Origin: an uncultured Opitutia bacterium
GTDB lineage: Bacteria; Verrucomicrobiota; Verrucomicrobiia; Opitutales; Opitutaceae
Length of the DNA: 64,000 nt
Assembly (NCBI GenBank): GCA_903859715.1
Contig: CAIONS010000065.1
Span: forward strand, 1 to 64,000
Direction: 5' to 3'
Part shown: piece after piece, positions 3,266 through 63,449 of the stretch
Layout: every line of letters begins with the position of its first letter
How positions within the stretch are numbered: position 1 is the stretch's first letter
Translations under genes and position numbers: made by a program
The notes under the pieces: generated by a model
The model's input: only the letters and a program-made list of their open reading frames with translations
Told to the model about the DNA's origin: nothing
Databases searched by the model: none

Positions 3266-3296
3266 GCGGGAATCTGCCGTCATCCGGCATTCCGTG

Positions 3297-3370
3297 GTAG
3301 GGCGCGACCGCTGGGCGCGCCGGCTCGGCCGGGGGAACGACAATCGGCGGTCCCAGCGGTCCCGCCCTAC
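3297..3370. repeat. Palindromic element, family A (GTAGGGCGGGACCGC)
   Basis: Imperfect inverted repeat: GTAGGGCGCGACCGCTGGG at 3297 pairs with CCCAGCGGTCCCGCCCTAC ending at 3370. It lies between the convergent glycosidase and malate dehydrogenase genes, where its hairpin could end transcription from both sides. The same family occurs at 35027-35094, there inside a gene. Confidence 0.8.
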
Positions 3371-3390
3371 CTCGAGCCGTTTCGCGCAAC

Positions 3391-4488: not shown

Positions 4489-4569
4489 GATCGCGGAAGC
4501 GCGGAGGGGCGGAAGCACGGAACGGCAGATCGAAATTCAGCGTTTCCGCTCCTCTGCGTTTCCGCGATC
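4489..4569. repeat. Inverted repeat, GCGGAAGC family
   Basis: Left arm begins GATCGCGGAAGCGCGG (4489) and right arm ends TTTCCGCGATC (4569); arms of about 29 bases match with a few differences, and each is a run of GCGGAAGC-like words. It fills the gap between mdh and the DAHP synthase gene, both on the minus strand. Confidence 0.75.
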
Positions 4570-5765: not shown

Positions 5766-5848
5766 GAATCTTAATCTGGAACTCAGGAACTTGGGAATCA
5801 GGCAGCACGATCCGGTTCCAGCGTTCCTGAGTTCCACATTCAAATCTG
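5766..5848. repeat. Palindromic element, family D (TGGAACTCAGGAAC)
   Basis: TGGAACTCAGGAAC at 5777-5790 pairs perfectly with GTTCCTGAGTTCCA at 5823-5836, with weaker complementarity on both sides. It lies upstream of the DAHP synthase. A longer, better-preserved copy is at 48517-48622. Confidence 0.8.
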
Positions 5849-12920: not shown

Positions 12921-13072
12921 AACCACGAATGGACACGAATCCACACGAATGGATCAGACATACGGCCAAAGCCATTTAACCACGGATTGCACGGATGTCA
13001 CGGATCAGGCCTCGAACCTTTCCGCTGGGAGAGGATGAAATCCGTGTTATCCGCGCAATCCGTGGTCAAAAT
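12921..13072. repeat. Word-repeat elements: ACGAATGG run and CACGGATTG inverted repeat
   Basis: At 12921-12955 a single-armed run ACCACGAATGG-ACACGAATCC-ACACGAATGG with 10-base period. At 12975-13072 a two-armed element: TTTAACCACGGATTGCACGG at the left pairs with ATCCGCGCAATCCGTGGTCA at the right, with a word period of nine. They separate yggS from the SirB1-like gene. Confidence 0.8.
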
Positions 13073-18480: not shown

Positions 18481-18664
18481 ATTTTTAACCACGGATTTCA
18501 CAGATGACACGGATCAGAAATCGGAATCGCGAACTTCAAGCCCTCTTACAGGAGGAAACGGAGGGAACGGAGAAAAGGGAATCGGCGCTCTCTGTTTCCT
18601 CCGTTACCTCCTGTAAATGATCGATGGTTTGAGATCCCCATCCGGGAAATCCGCCATTAAAATT
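18481..18664. repeat. Nested inverted elements: CACGGATTT outer, GAGGAAACG inner
   Basis: Outer arms are ATTTTTAACCACGGATTTCA (18481) and CGGGAAATCCGCCATTAAAA (ending about 18662). Inside them lies a complete second element: TTACAGGAGGAAACGGAGGG (18546) paired with CCTCCGTTACCTCCTGTAA (ending 18617). The arrangement looks like one element inserted in the loop of another. It fills most of the gap between the hydrolase and the pseudouridine synthase, which diverge here. Confidence 0.8.
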
Positions 18665-21649: not shown

Positions 21650-21660
21650 TCGAGGCTTGG

Positions 21661-21808
21661 TTTAACCACGAAGATCACGAAGGGCACGAAGTTCGATCCC
21701 ATGAGTTGATCGCGGAAACGCGGAGGAGCGGAAGCGCGGAAACAATCGTTGGATCGACGATTCAATCTGGGTCTGAAGGATCGGCCTTCGCGATCTCCGT
21801 GATGAAAC
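21661..21808. repeat. Nested inverted elements: CACGAAGG outer, GCGGAAAC inner
   Basis: Outer left arm TTTAACCACGAAGATCACGAA has its partner at CCTTCGCGATCTCCGTGATG near the right end. Between them is a GCGGAAACGCGGAGGAGCGG run (21710-21741), the GCGGAAGC family. The element separates the convergent FadB-type and ADOP permease genes. Confidence 0.75.
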
Positions 21809-21809
21809 C

Positions 21810-24293
21810 TCATTCCGCCCTCAGCGCCACGATGGGGTCGACCTTGGTCGCGCGGCGGGCGGGGACCCAGCAGGCGAGGAGGGCGATGGCGGAGAGGAGC
21901 ACGATGATGGCGAAGTACGAAACCGGGTCGTAGGGGCTGACGTTGAACAGCAGCGCGCTGATCAACCGGGTGCTGACGAGCGCACCGGCGGTGCCAAACA
22001 GCAATCCGATGCCGATGATGCGCGAGCCGCTGCCGAGGACGAGACGCAGCACATCCCGCGGCAGCGCACCCAGCGCCATGCGGATGCCGATCTCATGGGT
22101 GCGCTGATTCACCGAGTACGCCATCACGCCATAGATGCCGATGGCGGCGAGGACGAGGGCGATGACGGAGAACAGGGTGAAGAGGATCATGTTGAAGCGC
22201 TGCTGCGTCCACCACCACTCGAGCGTGTTGATCAGCGGGTAAAGCGTGTCGAACCGGACATCCTTATCCAAGGAGTGGAAGACATCACGGATGGCGGGCA
22301 CCATGCCCGGCGCCGGCCCCTTGGTGCGGACCACGAGGGTCATGAGTTGCTCGGGCATTTGATCGAACGCCTCGTAGACCTGCGGCCCGGTCTCGCTTTG
22401 GGGCCCACGCGGTTTCACGTCCCCGACGACGCCGATGATTTCCGACCAGATCTCGGGCGCCGGCTTGCTCGGATCGCTGTCCACCACGCGGATGCGCTGG
22501 CCCAGCGGATCCTTGCCGGCAAAGTGCCGCCGCACCATTTCCCGGTTGACGATCACGACGCGGGCCGTGGCGACGGTGTCGTGGGAATTGAAAACGCGGC
22601 CGCGGATGAGCGGGACGCTCATCACCTTGAAGTAATCGGGCGTCACGGCGTAGCGGTCCGTCGTGAGTCCGGGCTCGGACGGCGACGTGGACGCGTGCCC
22701 GCCCTCGAGGACGAATTCCCGCTGCTGCACCCGGCCGCGGTTGCCGGCCGAGGGGTAACCGAGGGTGATGCACGCGGAATCTATGTCCGGCAGACCCTGC
22801 ACGCGTTCGAGCATGATGTGGGTAAAAGTCAGGATTTTTTCAGGCGTGTTGTAACGCTGCTGCGAGTTGAGCGTGAACTGGGCGCCGGACACATTTTCCG
22901 GCTTTAATCCCTGATCGAAGGTCTGCATCGCGTGGAGGCTGCGGACCAGCAGACCGGTGCTCACCAGGAGCATGAGCGCAATGGAGATCTCGAGGATGAC
23001 CAGGAAATTGCGGACGCGCAGCCGCTCGCGGCCGCCGGAGGAGTTGTGACTGCTCTCTTTGATCGCCCCGATGAGGTCGCCGCGCGTGGCCTGCAGGGCG
23101 GGCACCAGACCGAAGCCCAAGCCGGCCACCACCATGACGCCGCACATCACGAGGAGAACGTTGCCGTCCACGGCGATGCGGTCGGCGTGAGGCATGAAGT
23201 GCTTCGCGAGCACGATCAAGGGTCCCATCGAGGCATAGGCCAGCATGATGCCAAGCGCGCCGCCGAAGACCGCGATCAGCAGGCTTTCGCAGAGGAACTG
23301 GCGGATGATGCGGCCGCGGCTGGCACCGAGGGCGGCGCGGACCGCGATTTCCTTCTGGCGGGAGTTCGCGCGGGCGAGCAGGAGGCTGGCGACATTGACG
23401 CAGGCAATCAGCAGCAGAAAACCCACGGCGCCGAGCAAGGCATACAGCTGGGGCTTGAGATCGGAGGTCCAGTCGTCGATTTCGCGGATCACCTTGATGC
23501 CGCGGTCCTTTTCGGTGTCGGGATGCTCCAGGGCCGCGCGCCGGGCGATCAGCTGCATCTCCATCTGAGCCTGTTCGAAGGTGGCGCCGGGCTTGAGCCG
23601 GCCCTCCATCCACAGGATGCGCGTCTTGAAATCCTGACGTTCCGACGCTTCGACTCCGGGCAGATAGACATAACTGCCAGTGCGCTCCGTATCCCAAACG
23701 ACGCCCACGATCGTGTAGGTCTGGTCGTCGAGCCGGAGCGTCTGCCCGATCATATCATCGCGGCCGCCGAACTGCTCCTTCCACAGGGCGTGGCTCAGGA
23801 TAACCACCTGATTCTTGCCCGCTCGCATTTCCTCCGGCAGAAACAGCCGGCCCTTCTCGGCCGAGAAGCGATAGACGGAAAAGAAATTGGCGGTGCAGCT
23901 GATGGCGAACAAATCCATGTAACGGTCGCCCTGCGCCAGCTTCACACCGCGAAAAGACACGGCGGCCAGTTCGTCGAAGACCGTGGCTTGGTGCAGCCAT
24001 TCGTTATAGATGCCCGGGGAGATCGGCATCTCCAGGTTCTTCGGCAGCTGATTTCCGGAAAGGTAAACCAGTCGGTCGGGTTCCTCGTAGTTGAGCGGGT
24101 GGAGGACGACCTTGTTGACGACGCTGAAGAGGGCGGTGCAGGCGCCGATGCCGAGGGCGATCGTGAGGATGGAGATCGTGGCGAAGCCGGGAGCCTTGAT
24201 GAGCTGGCGCAGGCCGTAGCGCACGTCCTGGCCGAATTGTCCGAGCCAAGGCAGTCCGCGCAGCGACCGCGAGGGGTGGGCGGGCTGGTTCAT
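21810..24293 (-). CDS. ADOP-type ABC transporter permease (MacB/FtsX fold)
   Basis: An 827-residue duplicated permease of the ADOP class common in Acidobacteria and Verrucomicrobia. The first transmembrane segment (about 40-65) is followed by a large MacB-like periplasmic domain; three segments lie around 280-410, with the FtsX motif REIAV-type [17 protein letters not shown]; a second periplasmic domain follows; and the last FtsX block contains [20 protein letters not shown] and ends [17 protein letters not shown]. No ATPase gene is adjacent. Probable role is mechanotransmission or export of an unknown substrate. It is under the neighbouring PadR gene, together with a decayed paralogue. Confidence 0.9.
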
Positions 24294-24356: not shown

Positions 24357-24530
24357 GGGGCACCATGAAAGACACGAAATGCGGAGGGACGGAATTCGAT
24401 CTTCAGGTGGCGAAATCTGATCCCCGGCCCGATGGATTGTTCCGTGATTCCGCTTTTCCACGATCAAGCGGACCGGCCTTCGCGCTCTTCGCGTCCTTGG
24501 TCGCCTTTGGCGACCTTCGTGGTGAACCCT
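24357..24530. repeat. Decayed CACGAAGG inverted element between ADOP genes
   Basis: CACCATGAAAGACACGAAATG at the left corresponds to GGCGACCTTCGTGGTGAACC at the right, with runs of CTTCGCG/TTGG words in the right half. The left arm is poorly preserved. It lies between the intact permease and the truncated one. Confidence 0.55.
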
Positions 24531-25099
24531 CACTCCGTCCGCAGCGCTATCATCGGGTCGACCGTGGTGGCGCGGCGGGCGGGGAGCCAGCAGGCGAGGA
24601 AGGCGATGAAACTGAGAAACAGCGGGACGATCACGTAGGCCAGTGGATCATGCGTGCTGATCTCGAAGAGCAGGGAGCCGAGAAAGTGCGTCGCCCCGAG
24701 GGACGCGATCAGGCCGATCACGACGCCAAGTCCGACCATCCGGCCCGTCTGGGAAAATACCAGGCGCAGGATGTCGCCTGCTTGGGCGCCGAGCGCCATG
24801 CGGATGCCGATCTCCTGGGTGCGTTGAGTAACGGCATAGGCCACCACGCCGTAAATCCCCAGCGCGCTGAGCAGCAGCGCCACGCCGGCAAAGGTCGCAA
24901 AGACGAAGAGCGCAAAGCGCTGCGGGGCGATGGTCTCGTTGAGGAACCCCTTGAGATCGATCTTGGTGACGAGCGAGAGCGGCATGTCGGGGTCCACCAA
25001 GTCCAGCGCCTGCCGCAGCGAGTGCTCGAGACCGGCGAGCGGGCCCTGCACGCGCACGAGCAGGCTGGGAGTCGCAAACGGAGCCTGAGCGAAAGGCAC
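24530..25099 (-). pseudogene. C-terminal remnant of a second ADOP permease
   Basis: A 189-residue open frame that matches, residue for residue along its length, only the last quarter of an ADOP permease: it begins inside the second periplasmic domain (PSLLVRVQGPLAGLEHS) and includes [20 protein letters not shown] and the ending PARRATTVDPMIALRTE. The intact neighbour has the same blocks near residues 640-827. The N-terminal 600 or so residues are missing, and only 42 bases separate it from padR, so a large deletion is the simplest explanation. The remaining frame has three or four membrane segments and might still be translated. Confidence 0.85.
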
Positions 25100-25141: not shown

Positions 25142-25474
25142 TTACGTGACTTTCAGGACCAGGTTAATCGCGGCGGAGACCTGTTCCCAATTCGAGGTCT
25201 CCACGGCGAGCTGCTTCCGGCCGGCGGGTGTCAGGGTATAGAAGCGGGCCTTGCGGTTGTTGTCTGAGACGCCCCATTCCGCCTTGATCCAGCCCTGCTC
25301 CTCCAGCCGGTAGAGGGCGGGGTAGAGAGAGCCTTGCTCCACCTGCAGGACATCCTGCGACATTTGCCGGATCTGCACCGAGATGCCGAAGCCGTGGACC
25401 GGCCCGCGCTGCAGTGATTTCAGGACCAGCAGGTCCAAGGTGCCTTGCAACAAATCATTTTTTTCTTTGGCCAT
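25142..25474 (-). CDS. PadR-family transcriptional regulator
   Basis: A 110-residue PadR-type winged-helix repressor, short (PadR-s1) form. Visible signatures are LLQGTLDLLVLKSLQRGPVHG, the recognition part VEQGSLYPALYRLEEQGWI, and ARFYTLTPAGRKQL. PadR genes of this kind usually precede ADOP permease genes, as here. It probably represses its own operon through the TCTAG-type palindromes directly upstream (25482-25525). The inducer is unknown. Confidence 0.95.
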   Translation of the reverse strand: MAKEKNDLLQGTLDLLVLKSLQRGPVHGFGISVQIRQMSQDVLQVEQGSLYPALYRLEEQGWIKAEWGVSDNNRKARFYTLTPAGRKQLAVETSNWEQVSAAINLVLKVT

Positions 25475-25481
25475 GGGTATT

Positions 25482-25525
25482 CCTAGATGTTCTAGGAGAG
25501 ACTCAAAAACGGGCTCTCCTAGAAC
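25482..25525. promoter_or_regulatory. Probable PadR operator
   Basis: GTTCTAGGAGAG (25489-25500) and CTCTCCTAGAAC (25514-25525) form a perfect 12-base inverted repeat with a 13-base spacer; CCTAGA-TGT-TCTAGG (25482-25496) makes a second, overlapping palindrome. These lie 8 to 51 bases upstream of the padR ATG, the classical place for PadR autorepression sites. Confidence 0.65.
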
Positions 25526-25551
25526 GTCAACAGGAAAGAAGGCCCGGAGTT

Positions 25552-25797
25552 ATCACCACGAAAAAAACGAAGCACACGAAAACCGGACCACGAAGGCGGC
25601 CTCATGGATTTATCGCGGAAGCCGGAAGGACGGAAACGTGGAAGAATCTTCCATCCGTAGCAGCCGACGTCAGGAGGCTGGTGAAGCACGCGCCGAAGCT
25701 CAGCCTCCTCACGTCGGCTGCTACTACCTCTGCTGGATTGCTTCTGCGATCACTCCCCGGATCGGGTTTCGTGTCGTTCGTGTGTTTCGTGGTGACC
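25552..25797. repeat. Triply nested inverted elements (CACGAAGG / GCGGAAGC / GTAGCAGCC)
   Basis: Outer arms TATCACCACGAAAAAAACGA and TTCGTGTGTTTCGTGGTGA; within them TCGCGGAAGCCGGAAGG paired with TTGCTTCTGCGATCA; in the centre a 24-base-arm palindrome starting GTAGCAGCCGACGTCAGG (25657) and ending TCACGTCGGCTGCTAC (25724), with one mismatch between the arms. Three families are thus stacked concentrically in the 425-base gap between padR and the 2-oxoacid dehydrogenase gene. Confidence 0.85.
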
Positions 25798-25899
25798 ATT
25801 CTGTCCGGTCAAAAGCGGAAAACGCGTTGCGTTGGCGGGCATTTGGGTGAGCGTTGAGGGCATCGAAAACATCTGCGCCCAATCCCCTTTGGAGTCCTC

Positions 25900-28800
25900 A
25901 TGCCCACTGTCGCGTCCCGCCTGTCCTCTCAACTGAAACGCCGGCTGCTGACGACCATCCTGGAGAGTCGTCAGGGCGATCTGCGGGAGGAAAACCTCAA
26001 CCGCCAGGGCAAGGGGCACTTTCATGTGTCCGGCCGCGGCCACGAGGCCCTCGCGGCCGTGAGCGTGCAGTTGCAGCCCGACGATTACATCGTGCCCTAC
26101 TACCGCGACCGCGGCCTTGTGCTGGGCCGTGGCGTGACCACGCGGCAGCTCGCGCTCGACTACATGGCCAAGCGCGAGTCGTCGTCGCGCGGCCGGCAGA
26201 TGCCGTCGCACTACAGCTATCGCGAACAGAACATCTGGAGCGTGCCGACGCCGACCGCCGCGCAACTGCTCCCGGCCTGCGGCATGGCGTGGGGCATGCA
26301 GCTCGACGGAAAGAAGAGCCTGGTCGTCACGACCGTGGGCGACGCCGCGACACGGCAGGGTGATTTCTACGAGGCGGTGTGCTTCGCGCAGGAGCGCAAG
26401 CTGCCGATGCTGTTCATCGTCGAGGACAACGGCTTTGGCATCAGCACGCCGACGGCCCGGACGACACCGCGGGCGCTCGCCGTGCTGAACGAGGAGCAAT
26501 GGCGCGCGGTGGACGGCTGGGATGTCGAGGCGGTGTATGCCGCCGCCGAGACCGCCGCGGCGGAAATCCGCGCCGGCAAGGGCCCGGTGCTGCTCTGGGC
26601 CCGGATGGAGCGGCTCTCAAGCCACACGAGTTCGGACGACCAGGCGATTTACCGGAGCAAGGACGAACTGGCCACGCTGGCGGAACGCGACCCGCTGATG
26701 ACGCTGAAGGCACAGCTGATCGCCGAGGGCGAGCTGACCGAGGCGGAGTTTGATCAACTGGAAAAGGACCTGAAGGAACGCATCCGGCTCGATTACGCCG
26801 AGGCGGAAAAAGCAGAGAATCCGGTGGCCAACGAACTGGAGCCCAACGTTTCGTCGCAACCCGCCGCGCTCGACGAGCAGGTGCTCAAGCCCGGCAGCTA
26901 CCGGATGGGCGATGTGATCAACCTCACGCTGCGCGCCGGGCTCGATGCCGACCCGGGCCGGCTGATCTTCGGCGAGGACGTCGAGGATCCCAAGGGCGGG
27001 GTGTTCCGGCTCACGCAGAAACTCTCCACGGATTTTCCGGAGCAGGTTTTCAACTCACCGCTGGCGGAGAGCACGATTCTTGGCGTGGCGTGCGGGCTGG
27101 CGAGCTACGGCAAGCGGCCGGTGTTCGAGATGCAGTTCATCGATTTCATTTATCCAGGCTGGAACCAGCTCGTGACGAACCTCGCGACGCTGCGCTGGCG
27201 CACCTACGGCCGCTGGTCGTGTCCGGTGGTCATCTATGCGCCGTACGGTGCGTACCTGCCGGGTGGATCGCTCTGGCATTCGCAGGCCAACGAGGCGGCC
27301 ATCGCGCATTTTCCGGGGCTCAACGTCGTCATTCCCAGCACGCCCGAAGATGCGGCGGGGTTGTTGTGGACGGCGATGCACACGGAGGACCCGGTGATTT
27401 TCCTCGCGCCGAAACATCTGCTCTGGGCCGAGCGCCGGATCGCCGAGCCCGCGATGGCAGTGCCGATCGGGCATGCGCGCCTCCGGCAGGAAGGCAACGA
27501 CGTCACACTGCTCGCGTGGGGCAACACGATGGAAAAAGCCCTGGAGGCGGTTGCCGCGATCGGGGACGGGGTCAGCATCGAGCTGATCGACCTGCGTTCG
27601 ATCGTGCCGTGGGACCACGAGATGATCGAGGAGTCGGTGCGCAAGACCGGCCGGCTCGTCGTGGTGCAGGAGGACACGGAGAACTGCTCCGTCGGCCAGA
27701 TGATCATTTCCCACATGGCGGGCCGGCCCGACGTCTGGAGCCGGATGGTGGCGCCGCCGGTGCTCGTTTCGAAGGGCAACGTCATGATCGGCTACAACCC
27801 GATCTACGAATACGCCGCGCTGCCCGACACCCCGCGCATCATCGATGCGCTGCGCCGCGTGGTGGCGACCTCGGTGGAGCGCGGGAGCTATGCCGCATCG
27901 TCCGTGGCTCCATTCGCGCCCGCGCCGCTGGTGGCATCCGTTTCTGCTTCCGACCCGGCGCATGCACCGGTAAACAGCGTCGTGCCTGGAACCAGCGACA
28001 TCATTGTGAAAGTCCCCATCATGGGCGAAGGCCTGCGCTCGGCGCGGGTGGTCGCGCTGCACAAGCAGGCCGGCGACAAGGTCAGTCACGACGACGTGCT
28101 GTGCGAAGTCGAGACGGACAAGGCGGTCTACCCGATCGAGGCGTCGTTCAGCGGCACGTTCAAGACGTGGAAGATCAAGGCCGATGACACGGTGGAGATC
28201 GGGCAGGAGATCGCGGTCGTCGCCGGCGATGCGGCAAGTGTCGCTACGATGGCGGCGCCGGTCGTGCCGCCGGCCCATCCGAGCCTGCAGCAGCTTCAAG
28301 GCAACCGGAGCGAATCAACCGGCGGTCAGCCAGCGTCCGCGCCCGGGCTGGCGGGTGAGCGCCGCGATCCGGCGCTGCCGGCGGCGATCACGCGCCGGCT
28401 CGACAGCGTGGTCCCTGCCAACATGGAGATGGATGTCCGCTATGGCGCACTGCGCGCGGCGCGCGAGCAGGCGAAAAAGGATCTCGGCAAGGCGGCACCC
28501 TCGCCGTCGGCGATGATGGGTTGGTGCGTGGTCCGTGCGATGGAGAAGCACGCGGGTTTCCGGCGGATTGTCACCAAGGACGGCACGATCCTGGAACAGA
28601 AGGACTTTGAGCTGGGCATCGCCGTGGCATTGGAAGGCGACCGGCTCGGCACGGCGGTCGTCCGCCGGAGCAACCGGCTCGGCTGGGCGGAATTTGTGAC
28701 CGCCTACACCGCGGCGGTGGATTCCACGCGCACGGGAAAAATCGAGGACGTGCAGGCGCCGCTGAACCTGACGAGCCTGGGGGCCTTCGGCATTGAAAAG

Positions 28801-29010
28801 GCGTGGCCGATCGTGGTGCCGCCAGCGATGAGCACCCTGTTTGTCGGCACGGCGCACGAGCGCATGATCAACGACGGCGGGGTGGTTTATCCCGTGGAAG
28901 TCGTGACGCTCTCGATCACCTTCGACCACCGGGTGGTCAACGGCGTGGGTGCGGCGGCGTTCCTGCAGGAACTGAAGGCGCAGTTCGAGGGGTTCAAGCT
29001 GCCGGGTTGA
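25900..29010 (+). CDS. Fused 2-oxoacid dehydrogenase: E1-alpha, E1-beta, lipoyl, E2
   Basis: A 1036-residue single chain holding the catalytic parts of a branched-chain/pyruvate-type dehydrogenase complex. Residues 1-300: E1-alpha with the thiamine-diphosphate motif GDAATRQGDF...VEDNGFGIST. Residues 330-660: E1-beta (GEDVEDPKGGVFRLT, FNSPLAESTILG, GSLWHSQANEAAIAHFPG). Residues 700-775: lipoyl domain with target lysine K741 in CEVETDKAVYP. Residues 820-1036: E2 acyltransferase with the active-site segment FDHRVVNGVGAA. The canonical DHRxxDG motif has Asn1014 for Asp. No peripheral-subunit-binding domain is evident in the 775-820 linker, which is Ala/Pro/Gly-rich. No E3 gene is nearby. Substrate uncertain (pyruvate, branched-chain or acetoin-type). 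Confidence 0.9.
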   Translation: MPTVASRLSSQLKRRLLTTILESRQGDLREENLNRQGKGHFHVSGRGHEALAAVSVQLQPDDYIVPYYRDRGLVLGRGVTTRQLALDYMAKRESSSRGRQMPSHYSYREQNIWSVPTPTAAQLLPACGMAWGMQLDGKKSLVVTTVGDAATRQGDFYEAVCFAQERKLPMLFIVEDNGFGISTPTARTTPRALAVLNEEQWRAVDGWDVEAVYAAAETAAAEIRAGKGPVLLWARMERLSSHTSSDDQAIYRSKDELATLAERDPLMTLKAQLIAEGELTEAEFDQLEKDLKERIRLDYAEAEKAENPVANELEPNVSSQPAALDEQVLKPGSYRMGDVINLTLRAGLDADPGRLIFGEDVEDPKGGVFRLTQKLSTDFPEQVFNSPLAESTILGVACGLASYGKRPVFEMQFIDFIYPGWNQLVTNLATLRWRTYGRWSCPVVIYAPYGAYLPGGSLWHSQANEAAIAHFPGLNVVIPSTPEDAAGLLWTAMHTEDPVIFLAPKHLLWAERRIAEPAMAVPIGHARLRQEGNDVTLLAWGNTMEKALEAVAAIGDGVSIELIDLRSIVPWDHEMIEESVRKTGRLVVVQEDTENCSVGQMIISHMAGRPDVWSRMVAPPVLVSKGNVMIGYNPIYEYAALPDTPRIIDALRRVVATSVERGSYAASSVAPFAPAPLVASVSASDPAHAPVNSVVPGTSDIIVKVPIMGEGLRSARVVALHKQAGDKVSHDDVLCEVETDKAVYPIEASFSGTFKTWKIKADDTVEIGQEIAVVAGDAASVATMAAPVVPPAHPSLQQLQGNRSESTGGQPASAPGLAGERRDPALPAAITRRLDSVVPANMEMDVRYGALRAAREQAKKDLGKAAPSPSAMMGWCVVRAMEKHAGFRRIVTKDGTILEQKDFELGIAVALEGDRLGTAVVRRSNRLGWAEFVTAYTAAVDSTRTGKIEDVQAPLNLTSLGAFGIEKAWPIVVPPAMSTLFVGTAHERMINDGGVVYPVEVVTLSITFDHRVVNGVGAAAFLQELKAQFEGFKLPG

Positions 29011-29900: not shown

Positions 29901-30006
29901 TTTACCGCAAAGGGCGCCAAGATCGCGAAGGACGATGCTCGGATTTTGGGAGTGAAGCGTTCCTTGCTGATGGGCCTTCGTGATCTTGGCGGTCTTCGCG
30001 GTTTAA
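29901..30006. repeat. Inverted element, CGCAAAGGGCGCCAAG family
   Basis: TTTACCGCAAAGGGCGCCAA (29901) pairs with TTGGCGGTCTTCGCGGTTTAA (ending 30006); the ~32-base arms are runs of a CGCGAAGG-like word at 9-10 base spacing. It lies between the TPR gene and the CFA-family gene on the minus strand. Confidence 0.75.
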
Positions 30007-30025: not shown

Positions 30026-30050
30026 CCAGCCTCCTTACGTCGGCTGCTAC
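30026..30050. repeat. Half of a GTAGCAGCC-family palindrome
   Basis: CCAGCCTCCTTACGTCGGC plus TGCTAC matches the right arm of the elements at 25657 and 39518, but no left arm is present. Either a decayed copy or a solitary arm. Confidence 0.65.
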
Positions 30051-35392: not shown

Positions 35393-35489
35393 TTTTAACC
35401 ACGGATTTCACGGATTCGATCCGGATAAATCCCATGCCGGGGAAGATCCGGTATTCCCGTCCGTGGCATCCGTGAAATCCGTGGTTAAA
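35393..35489. repeat. Inverted word-repeat, CACGGATTT family
   Basis: TTTTAACCACGGATTTCACG at the left and CGTGAAATCCGTGGTTAAAT at the right, nearly perfect over 24 bases, with a loop containing GATCCGG/CCGGAT words. It lies between the FAD oxidoreductase and DUF1365 genes on the same strand. Confidence 0.85.
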
Positions 35490-39517: not shown

Positions 39518-39589
39518 GTGGCAGCCGACGTAAGGAGGCTGGTTCGCTTGGCAGTGCGCCCTAACCAGCCTCCTCACGTCGGCTGCTAC
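39518..39589. repeat. Palindromic element, family B (GTAGCAGCCGACG)
   Basis: GTGGCAGCCGACGTAAGGAG at 39518 pairs with CTCCTCACGTCGGCTGCTAC ending 39589; the arms differ at two positions. The same family forms the core of the nested element at 25657 and the half-copy at 30026. Confidence 0.85.
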
Positions 39590-48516: not shown

Positions 48517-48622
48517 TTTTATGTGGAACTCAGGAACTCTGGAATCGATCCGCTGAATTCTGGCCTTGGATCAATTCATCTGGTTTGGGGATTGGCCCAG
48601 AGTTCCTGAGTTCCACATAAAA
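48517..48622. repeat. Palindromic element, family D (TTTTATGTGGAACTC)
   Basis: Two perfect 26-base arms (48517-48542 and 48597-48622; TTTTATGTGGAACTCAGGAA at the left) with a 54-base loop that itself contains GATCC/GGATC. Between two convergent genes, where it may serve as a terminator. A worn copy is at 5766-5848. Confidence 0.9.
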
Positions 48623-60901: not shown

Positions 60902-61840
60902 ATGAACGCAGGCCAGTCAGCGTCGTTTCGCCGGCTGTTCGACGAAGTCGGCCCGGTCGACGCCGTCGGCATCGAGGAGCGCGTCGCCAAATATACGACC
61001 CGGAGCATCAAGAAGTCCGCCAAGCTCTGGGGCCTGAAGACGGCGGTCACGATGGTCGATCTCACGACACTCGAGGGCAAGGACACGCCCGGCAAGGTGG
61101 CCTCGCTGTGCCAGAAGGCGCTGCATCCGTCCGATGATTCGACCGTGCCGCCGGTCGCCGCGGTCTGCGTTTATCCCGCCATGGTGCGCCATGCGCGCCG
61201 GGCGCTCGGGCCGGGTGCGAAGGTGCGGATCGCCTCGGTGGCGACGGCATTTCCGTCCGGGCAGACGGCGCTCGTCACGCGCCTCGCCGAGGTGCGAAGG
61301 GCCGTCGCGGACGGGGCCGATGAGATCGACATGGTCATCAACCGCGGGGCGTTTCTCGCGGGCGAGTTTGCCGAGGTGCAGGACGAGATCGCCGCCGTGG
61401 TGGCGGCGTGCGGCGCGGCGACCCTCAAGGTCATCCTCGAAGTCAGCGAACTCGAGACGTACGACAAGATCCGGGCTGCGTCCTTTCTGGCCATGAGCGT
61501 AATCCGCCCGGGCGACTTCATCAAGACCAGCACGGGCAAGACCACGCTCAACGCCACGCTGGGCAACAACCAGGTGATGCTCGAGGCGATCCGCGATTTC
61601 TACCTTGATACCGGCACGGCCATCGCGATGAAACCGGCCGGCGGCATCCGCACGGCGAAGCAGGCGCTGCAATTCCTCATCGCGGTAAAGGAAACGCTCG
61701 GCGATGCCTGGCTGAACAACAAACGCTACCGCTTCGGGGCGAGTTCCCTGCTCAACGATCTGCTCCGCCAGATCGAGAAGGAGCGGACTGGAGCCTACCA
61801 AGCCCCTTACTATTTCAGCGAAGCCGCCGAATCCTATTAA
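60902..61840 (+). CDS. deoC: Deoxyribose-phosphate aldolase
   Basis: A 312-residue DERA, cleaving 2-deoxyribose 5-phosphate to glyceraldehyde 3-phosphate and acetaldehyde. The Schiff-base lysine lies in GDFIKTSTGKTTLNATLG and the second active-site lysine in IAMKPAGGIRTAKQAL; DEIDMVINRGAFLAGEF and VKVI-type LKVILEVSELETYDKI are conserved. It belongs to the longer (about 310-residue) subgroup, with an N-terminal helix region. ATG at 60887 is an alternative start. Aldehyde dehydrogenase genes follow, which would oxidise the acetaldehyde. Confidence 0.93.
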   Translation: MNAGQSASFRRLFDEVGPVDAVGIEERVAKYTTRSIKKSAKLWGLKTAVTMVDLTTLEGKDTPGKVASLCQKALHPSDDSTVPPVAAVCVYPAMVRHARRALGPGAKVRIASVATAFPSGQTALVTRLAEVRRAVADGADEIDMVINRGAFLAGEFAEVQDEIAAVVAACGAATLKVILEVSELETYDKIRAASFLAMSVIRPGDFIKTSTGKTTLNATLGNNQVMLEAIRDFYLDTGTAIAMKPAGGIRTAKQALQFLIAVKETLGDAWLNNKRYRFGASSLLNDLLRQIEKERTGAYQAPYYFSEAAESY

Positions 61841-61929
61841 TTTTCACAGGAGGAAACGGAGAGAACGGAGCAATGCGACAGACCCTTCCTTCTTTCTCCT
61901 CTGTTTCCTCCGTTACCTCCTGTAAAAAA
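61841..61929. repeat. Inverted word-repeat, GGAGGAAACGGAG family
   Basis: CACAGGAGGAAACGGAGAGA (61845) pairs with TCTGTTTCCTCCGTTACCTC (ending 61920) followed by CTGTAAAA. It lies between deoC and the first aldehyde dehydrogenase. The sister copy at 18546-18617 is nested in another element. Confidence 0.85.
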
Positions 61930-61940
61930 TAGATCTCTCC

Positions 61941-63449
61941 ATGCCAACCTTAGCCGCCGGAAAAAAACAGACTCCCCGCCGCCAGGGCCGCCCCGCGCCC
62001 GAGCTCATCTTCGGTGACCTCTGGACGTACGATCCCGCACCGGAGACGGCGGATCCGAAGCTGAAGAAACGCTACGAACTCTTCATCAACGGCCGGTTCG
62101 TCGCGCCGAAGTCGGGGAAGTATTTCAGCTCCATCAACCCGGCCAACGAGCAGAAGCTCGCCGAGATCGCACTGGCGGATCGGGCGGATGTCGATGCCGC
62201 GTACCGCGCAGCGAAAAAGGCGTACGACACCACCTGGGGCAAAATGCCGGGGGCGGAGCGGGCCAAATATCTTTTCCGAATTGCGCGGCTGCTGCAGGAC
62301 CGGGCCCGCGAATTTGCCGTCGCCGAGACGATGGACGGCGGCAAGCCGATCAAGGAGTCGCGCGACTTCGACGTGCCGATGGCGGCGGCGCATTTCTTTT
62401 ATCACGCCGGCTGGGCGGACAAGCTCGACTACGTGGCGCCGGGCCGCCGGATCGCGCCGCTGGGCGTGGTGGGGCAGGTCATCCCGTGGAACTTCCCCCT
62501 GCTGATGTGTGCATGGAAACTCGCGCCCGCGCTGGCGATGGGCAACTGCGTTGTGCTGAAGCCCGCCGAGACGACCTCGATTACTGCGCTCAAGCTCGCC
62601 GAGATCATCCAGGACGCGGGCCTGCCGCCGGGCGTGGTGAACATCGTGACCGGGGCGGGCGAAACCGGTGCGGCGGTGATGGGCCATCCGATTCCGGCGA
62701 AGGTCGCGTTCACGGGCTCGACCGAAGTGGGCAAGATCATCATGCGCTCGCTCGCAGGCACAGACAAAAAGATGACGATGGAACTCGGCGGCAAGGCCGC
62801 GAACATCATCTTCGACGACGCGCCGCTCGACCAGGCGGTCGAGGGCATCATCAACGGCATTTTCTTCAACCAGGGGCACGTCTGTTGCGCCGGCTCACGC
62901 CTGCTGGTGCATGAGCCCGTGGCGGACCGGGTCATTGCAAAGCTCAAGCAGCGGATGAAGGTGCTGCGCGTCGGCGATCCGCTCGACAAGAACACCGACG
63001 TCGGAGCGATCAACTCGAAGGAGCAGCTCGCAAGGATCACGGCACTCGTCAAAAGCGGCGTGAAGGAAGGCGCCGAGATGTTTCAGCCGGCCTGCACGCT
63101 GCCGGCGAAGGGCTGGTATTTTCCGCCGACGATTTTCTCCGGTGTGTCGATGAGCCACCGCATTGCGCGCGAGGAGATCTTCGGCCCGGTGCTTTCGATC
63201 CTCACGTTCCGCACGCCGGAAGAGGCAGTCGAGAAGGCCAACAACACCGCCTATGGTCTCAGTGCCGGCGTGTGGACAGACAAGGGTTCACGGATCCTGA
63301 AGATGTCCACGGAGCTGAAGGCCGGCGTGGTCTGGGCCAACACCTACAATAAGTTCGACCCGACCTCGCCGTTCGGCGGGTACAAGGAAAGCGGCTTCGG
63401 CCGCGAAGGCGGCCGGCAGGGCCTGCTGGATTACTGCCGGCTGGTTTAA
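61941..63449 (+). CDS. Aldehyde dehydrogenase 1
   Basis: A 502-residue NAD(P)-dependent aldehyde dehydrogenase. Catalytic cysteine in NQGHVCCAGSRLLVH, general base glutamate in TMELGGKAANIIFDD, the cofactor segments VIPWNFPLLMCAWKLAPAL and FTGSTEVGKIIMRSLA, and the late NPFGG-type DPTSPFGGYKESGFGREGG. The N-terminal 45 residues are an extension (KKQTPRRQGRPAPELIFGDLW). Directly after deoC it should act on acetaldehyde or a related short aldehyde. Confidence 0.93.
   Translation: MPTLAAGKKQTPRRQGRPAPELIFGDLWTYDPAPETADPKLKKRYELFINGRFVAPKSGKYFSSINPANEQKLAEIALADRADVDAAYRAAKKAYDTTWGKMPGAERAKYLFRIARLLQDRAREFAVAETMDGGKPIKESRDFDVPMAAAHFFYHAGWADKLDYVAPGRRIAPLGVVGQVIPWNFPLLMCAWKLAPALAMGNCVVLKPAETTSITALKLAEIIQDAGLPPGVVNIVTGAGETGAAVMGHPIPAKVAFTGSTEVGKIIMRSLAGTDKKMTMELGGKAANIIFDDAPLDQAVEGIINGIFFNQGHVCCAGSRLLVHEPVADRVIAKLKQRMKVLRVGDPLDKNTDVGAINSKEQLARITALVKSGVKEGAEMFQPACTLPAKGWYFPPTIFSGVSMSHRIAREEIFGPVLSILTFRTPEEAVEKANNTAYGLSAGVWTDKGSRILKMSTELKAGVVWANTYNKFDPTSPFGGYKESGFGREGGRQGLLDYCRLV

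Follow-up and report, generated by a model that had tools for sequence, protein, structure and literature searches.

A GTAG-tagged REP doublet nested within a probably older, composite hairpin element in an Opitutaceae genome

Dimers of GTAG-tagged REPs have been described by Di Nocera and co-workers (2013, PMC3733652). In the sections of that report considered here, several families are assigned to Opitutus terrae, and REP dimers are reported to reside inside palindromes in A. variabilis, T. roseum and H. neapolitanus. A dimer enclosed by two further inverted repeats is found in an uncultured Opitutia bacterium, in a stretch of 64,000 nucleotides (contig CAIONS010000065.1, hereafter the window) taken from a draft genome of 3.18 Mb (G000). 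The nest lies in the gap (25475-25899) between a PadR-like regulator gene (25142-25474, minus strand; PF03551, E 4.7e-21) and a gene encoding a fused E1/E2 2-oxoacid dehydrogenase (25900-29010, plus strand; PF00676, PF02779, PF02780, PF00364, PF00198). The reading favored here, to which we assign a probability of about 0.7, is that an older CACGAA/GCGGAA hairpin element, probably a composite, was later entered by a REP doublet. The original prediction was that each newcomer enters the loop or the cruciform tip of an older element, and that depth in the nest gives the age.

The outer element has 33-nt arms (25553-25585, plus strand, made of CACGAA-type units, and 25763-25795, minus strand), which are 85% complementary and 177 nt apart. 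An extra CACGAAGG unit is assigned to the left arm (25587-25597, plus strand), and its ACCACGAA residues pair with 25786-25793. The left arm of the middle element, which belongs to the GCGGAA family, spans 25610-25645 (plus strand) and aligns with window 21707-21741 and 4489-4522. At the opposite side a remnant of 13 nt (25740-25752, minus strand) differs by 1 mismatch from the family core TGATCGCGGAAGC. As the core, with at most one mismatch, has only 12 matches on both strands of 856 kb, the middle arm pair is unlikely to be fortuitous. The inner element is made by two 24-nt units in inverse orientation (25657-25680, plus strand, and 25701-25724, minus strand), members of a genome-wide family, which are 96% complementary and pair across a 20-nt loop (25681-25700) varying in sequence among copies. 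The three nested palindromic families are real, although the middle one retains only those 13 nt of its right arm. The claim that both halves of every element are symmetrically placed went too far, as the outer arms are separated from the doublet by 71 and 38 nt, and the layout is concentric, not strictly symmetrical. No target-site duplication is visible beside 25553/25795.

Other palindromes are found close to the flanking genes. One, at 25486-25528 (GATGTTCTAGGAGAG/CTCTCCTAGAACGTC), lies ahead of the PadR-like gene, has a similar counterpart in the congener G009, and is possibly the operator of the regulator itself. Another, resembling ACTCCGAAnGGAGT, is located right before GGAAAACGC, upstream of the dehydrogenase gene, in the congeners L020, L024, L026 and L043; in the window and in the sister species G005 only a degenerate form is found, adjoining the end of the repeat.

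Each inner half reads GTAG-CAGCC...GGCTG, a GTAG tetranucleotide adjoining a small palindrome. Two such REPs, set in inverse orientation, can form a single hairpin, and by its sequence the innermost element, a doublet of GTAG-tagged REPs, belongs with the REPINs, miniature mobile elements of a known type. A strict pattern identified 20 doublets in G000, against none in the reversed control. Most sampled doublets (18 of 21) reside in predicted intergenic gaps. Within the window, the family is represented also by a doublet that is not nested (39518-39589, plus strand) and by a single unit (30026-30050, minus strand). GTAGCAGCC doublets have near-identical arms and loops which are almost fully different in sequence, most being similar in length, as known for other REPs. 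Capture of loops by the arms was considered; some loops look alike by eye, and inherited, fast-changing loops may suffice. A palindromic target site was not detected for the REP doublets, since covariation of the flanks did not exceed permutation (39 doublets, P 0.63); among eight families tried, the lowest P value, uncorrected, was 0.02, for TTGGCCACAAAGAGGC.

Two Y1 transposase (Y1_Tnp) genes are present in G000. A different GTAG REP is copied on both sides of one of them (L017). The other (L016) matches NF047646 with 58 bits, under the cut-off of 80, and has perfect 23-bp terminal inverted repeats (1404-1426 and 2440-2462) containing GGGGTCAG; as far as the relevant parts of PMC3733652 and PMC6006769 go, it resembles the TIR-associated tyrosine transposases described there. 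A cognate RAYT for the GTAGCAGCC REP family was not found in the draft genome. By analogy with known REPINs, a Y1 (RAYT-type) transposase would have mobilised the doublet in the form of a single-stranded hairpin. The REP-flanked and the TIR-flanked genes were counted in favor of an older element later joined by a doublet.

The same site was analyzed in the sister species G005, which corresponds to L039/L019 (G005 and L039 are identical over the 800 bases compared), and whose dehydrogenase gene is identical to that of the window at 729 of 800 bases. In G005 the left arms of both the CACGAA and the GCGGAA type are present, as is the TTCGTGGTGA end, about as far from the gene as in the window. 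The site aligns to the window nest with a score of 44.5 (shuffle maximum 26), and the doublet is absent. Because the outer repeat is decayed in G005 (10 nt of perfect pairing remain) and the left neighbour is a different gene (no PadR hit), the case for orthology depends on the right flank and the arms, and the doublet may have been lost in G005, instead of inserted in G000. With outer and middle parts and no doublet, G005 points to a secondary insertion in G000. As the two enclosing elements exist without it in the sister species, the doublet appears, on comparison of the two sequences, to be the youngest layer of the nest. A short non-autonomous hairpin element, with CACGAA-type outer and GCGGAA-type inner arms, would have occupied the site before the two species separated, and the GTAG-type doublet would have landed later, near its middle.

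Several other congeners have a GCGGAA hairpin alone in the gap. In G009 the PadR gene is retained, and a left arm of CACGAA type is followed by an unrelated hairpin, a configuration that suits successive, targeted insertions. The location between divergent genes, and the hairpins of other families found in the same gap of congeners, would fit a terminator, attenuator or operator maintained by selection in the promoter region, but sequence, families and nesting vary among congeners, an Rfam search of the window matched no family, and no terminator is needed in a gap whose flanking genes diverge; a function of this sort is improbable.

The succession of a CACGAA arm and a GCGGAA arm is found again at window 21667-21741 (score 45.5, shuffle maximum 23), where the spacer itself is only weakly alike, and at G000:C56:20046-20122 (71%). 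Recurrence of the compound at other loci had been named from the start as the mark of one composite element, and the repeated arm order argues against insertion of the middle element into the outer one at this site; the two probably form a composite, present elsewhere in the genome too, as judged from their sequences. All five CACGAA/GCGGAA pairs in the same orientation reside within the window, two of them making a single remnant at 24.5 kb, and 0 were found in the other 792 kb of the G000 sample, which suggests local duplication. The remnants at 21.7 and 24.5 kb, adjoining a 72% direct repeat, may stem from a single duplication. A second CACGAAG inverted repeat (21659-21809, plus strand) encloses the GCGGAA left arm at 21707-21741. 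The copies of the direct repeat (21781-21961 and 24501-24681) are located at the 3' ends of two adjacent genes of the minus strand, and each is followed by CACGAAG-type remnants.

Composites are common in the genus, and one might view all three layers as a single unit moving as a whole. Only the outer-middle part is known to recur: a whole-compound search of 12 congeneric genomes gave, among the matches listed, no second copy in which a doublet is joined to outer or middle parts, hence no full three-layer unit, and the sister species has the enclosing parts without the doublet. For the doublet, the notion of a single unit is already largely refuted, and we hold it highly improbable.

The outer and middle elements have terminal inverted repeats, occur in many copies and are intergenic, as MITEs are. 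Many inverted-repeat families of these genomes have arms built of successive 7-9-nt units in which some positions vary (CACGGATnn, CACGAAGnn, GGAACTCn, ACGGAGGGA, CGCAAAGnn, others). In the window, such repeats are found at 4489-4569, 5768-5845, 12975-13070, 18546-18616, 29904-30002, 35394-35489, 48517-48622, and elsewhere. The exact pattern ACCACGAAGnnCACGAAGnnCACGAAG marks 20 of 288 genomes of the phylum, distant families included, and occurs 42 times in G000 and 0 times in the reversed control. No description of families with a 9-nt period was recognised in the literature, which is not proof of absence.

Nesting was measured in 856 kb of G000 (window included), 1.09 Mb of G005 and 386 kb of G009, with genes predicted by codon usage. 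The sampled gaps contain 181, 186 and 55 inverted repeats, respectively; the 181 repeats of G000 lie in 149 kb of gaps, and 0 were found at the same threshold after mononucleotide shuffling of every gap. Pairs of elements sharing a gap are nested in 16 of 22 cases in G000, 9 of 20 in G005 and 8 of 9 in G009, and the pooled value for the three congeners, 33 of 51, compares with the 9.49 that random placement of the second element outside the arms would give. Inner elements lie near loop centres (mean asymmetry 0.22, against 0.50 for a uniform distribution; n=34, the G009 threshold being slightly looser). On excising elements and joining their flanks (247 elements with usable flanks; 87 of 334, with short flanks, were dropped), the junction of an enclosing repeat fell 21 times in the loop and 2 times in the arm, a ratio inflated by composites; the control gave 2/300, and simulated uniform insertion gives loop and arm calls at about 1:1. 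Nesting, centring and excision results would by themselves favor loop insertion, as do two more triple concentric nests in G009 (C13:207012-207279 and 216198-216420). In both, spacers are similar on the two sides. Another genus, represented by G015, has no bearing on nesting, with 11 inverted repeats and 0 same-gap pairs in 400 kb.

Many of these nests are not independent events. Among the nested compounds, 22 of 30 match elsewhere across the inner-outer junction; some matches are orthologous sites, others are not, for example C62:2426 and sC10:18746, with 82% along almost the whole length. Three compounds were searched genome-wide, and two recur; the orthologue of the third (C62:24473) matches the outer left arm and spacer only, the inner element being absent. 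Junction-spanning matches at other loci indicate that nests multiply as composites. An inner element, once nested, would be carried along by the outer arms, and the number of nests would grow without any targeting of loops. The first estimate for G000 (16 of 22, P 1e-8) counted composites as independent events, and was superseded by a composite-filtered count. Once recurrent composites are removed, 9 of 27 pairs are nested, against 3.42 expected (P 0.0018; central position P 0.002), and the nine are an upper bound, as recurrence was removed within samples and one of them, C62:9082, recurs at G000:C4:53463. The excess in G005 depends on the threshold, as 9 of 15 pairs are nested at 14 and 1 of 6 at 16 (P 0.45).

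The REP family of the nest shows no preference for loops: 2 of 25 intergenic doublets reside in the loop of another repeat, against 1.42 expected, and 2 of 47 were counted with a coarser motif. The picture for loop preference is divided, the REP family being unenriched, and all families together showing a residual nesting excess (P 0.002). This excess is unexplained by hitch-hiking within outer arms, and was counted against the reading of an older element entered by a doublet. It may be that, in this genus, several unrelated families of miniature hairpin elements favor the tips of hairpins already in place, a preference that insertion into single-stranded or cruciform DNA would predict, with the nests then spreading as composites through their outer arms; we consider this unlikely. 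Targeting of loops is possible as a weak general tendency at most, unproven, and unsupported for this REP family.

Depth in the nest is a poor measure of age. Inner arms are better paired than outer arms in 20 nests, outer arms in 14 (P 0.39), and arm decay thus follows no trend. A partner in the G005 sample was found for 92 of 414 sampled gaps. The inner element is missing and the outer one present in the orthologous gap at the nest site, at window 3293-3374 and at C68:90708; with C62:24473, these sites agree with serial entry into older loops. At C68:57912 and window 18478 the whole nest is common to both species, and at C36:73711 the inner element is shared while the outer is not, against the order of ages that depth had been taken to give. 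Given this gap, the recurring compounds, the unenriched doublets and the loss of the G005 excess at the stricter threshold, a series of insertions each aimed at an older loop is doubtful. Different repeat families often occupy the same place of the same gap in G000 and G005 (e.g. C68:59124, C68:86145, window 61820-61960), as though by reuse of sites or replacement of arms.

The nest is mostly ordinary mobile-repeat biology. If hairpin tips were real targets, nest depth would provide a relative clock for the arrival of repeats, and would point to insertion into single-stranded DNA. The more modest result is that nests can multiply through outer arms carrying an inner element, and nest counts overstate targeting. 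With many small inverted-repeat families, and nests frequent in close species, the genus is a good testing ground for targeting.

Comparison with described systems is based on selected sections of the sources. GTAG tag, stem, inverted dimers, and spacers alike in length and different in sequence are shared with the REPs of PMC3733652; in contrast to the cases reported in those sections, the enclosing palindrome is here itself a repeat family, and enclosure is exceptional for this REP (2 of 25). Likeness to the O. terrae families concerns the described form, not the consensus sequence. The doublet is also akin to Pseudomonas REPINs (Bertels and Rainey 2011, PMC3116915), hairpin-forming REP doublets of ~70 bp with conserved arms and a less conserved spacer, but differs in that its cognate RAYT was not found in the draft genome. 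The outer and middle elements, as the MITEs of PMC10969869, are short and intergenic, with inverted ends and no coding capacity; they differ from MITEs in having arms made by runs of 7-9-nt units with variable positions, and no visible target duplication; no related transposase came to light. Palindromic repeats serve as landing sites also for the insertion sequences that target REPs (Tobes and Pareja 2006, PMC1525189), the incomer being a full insertion sequence there, and a miniature repeat here.
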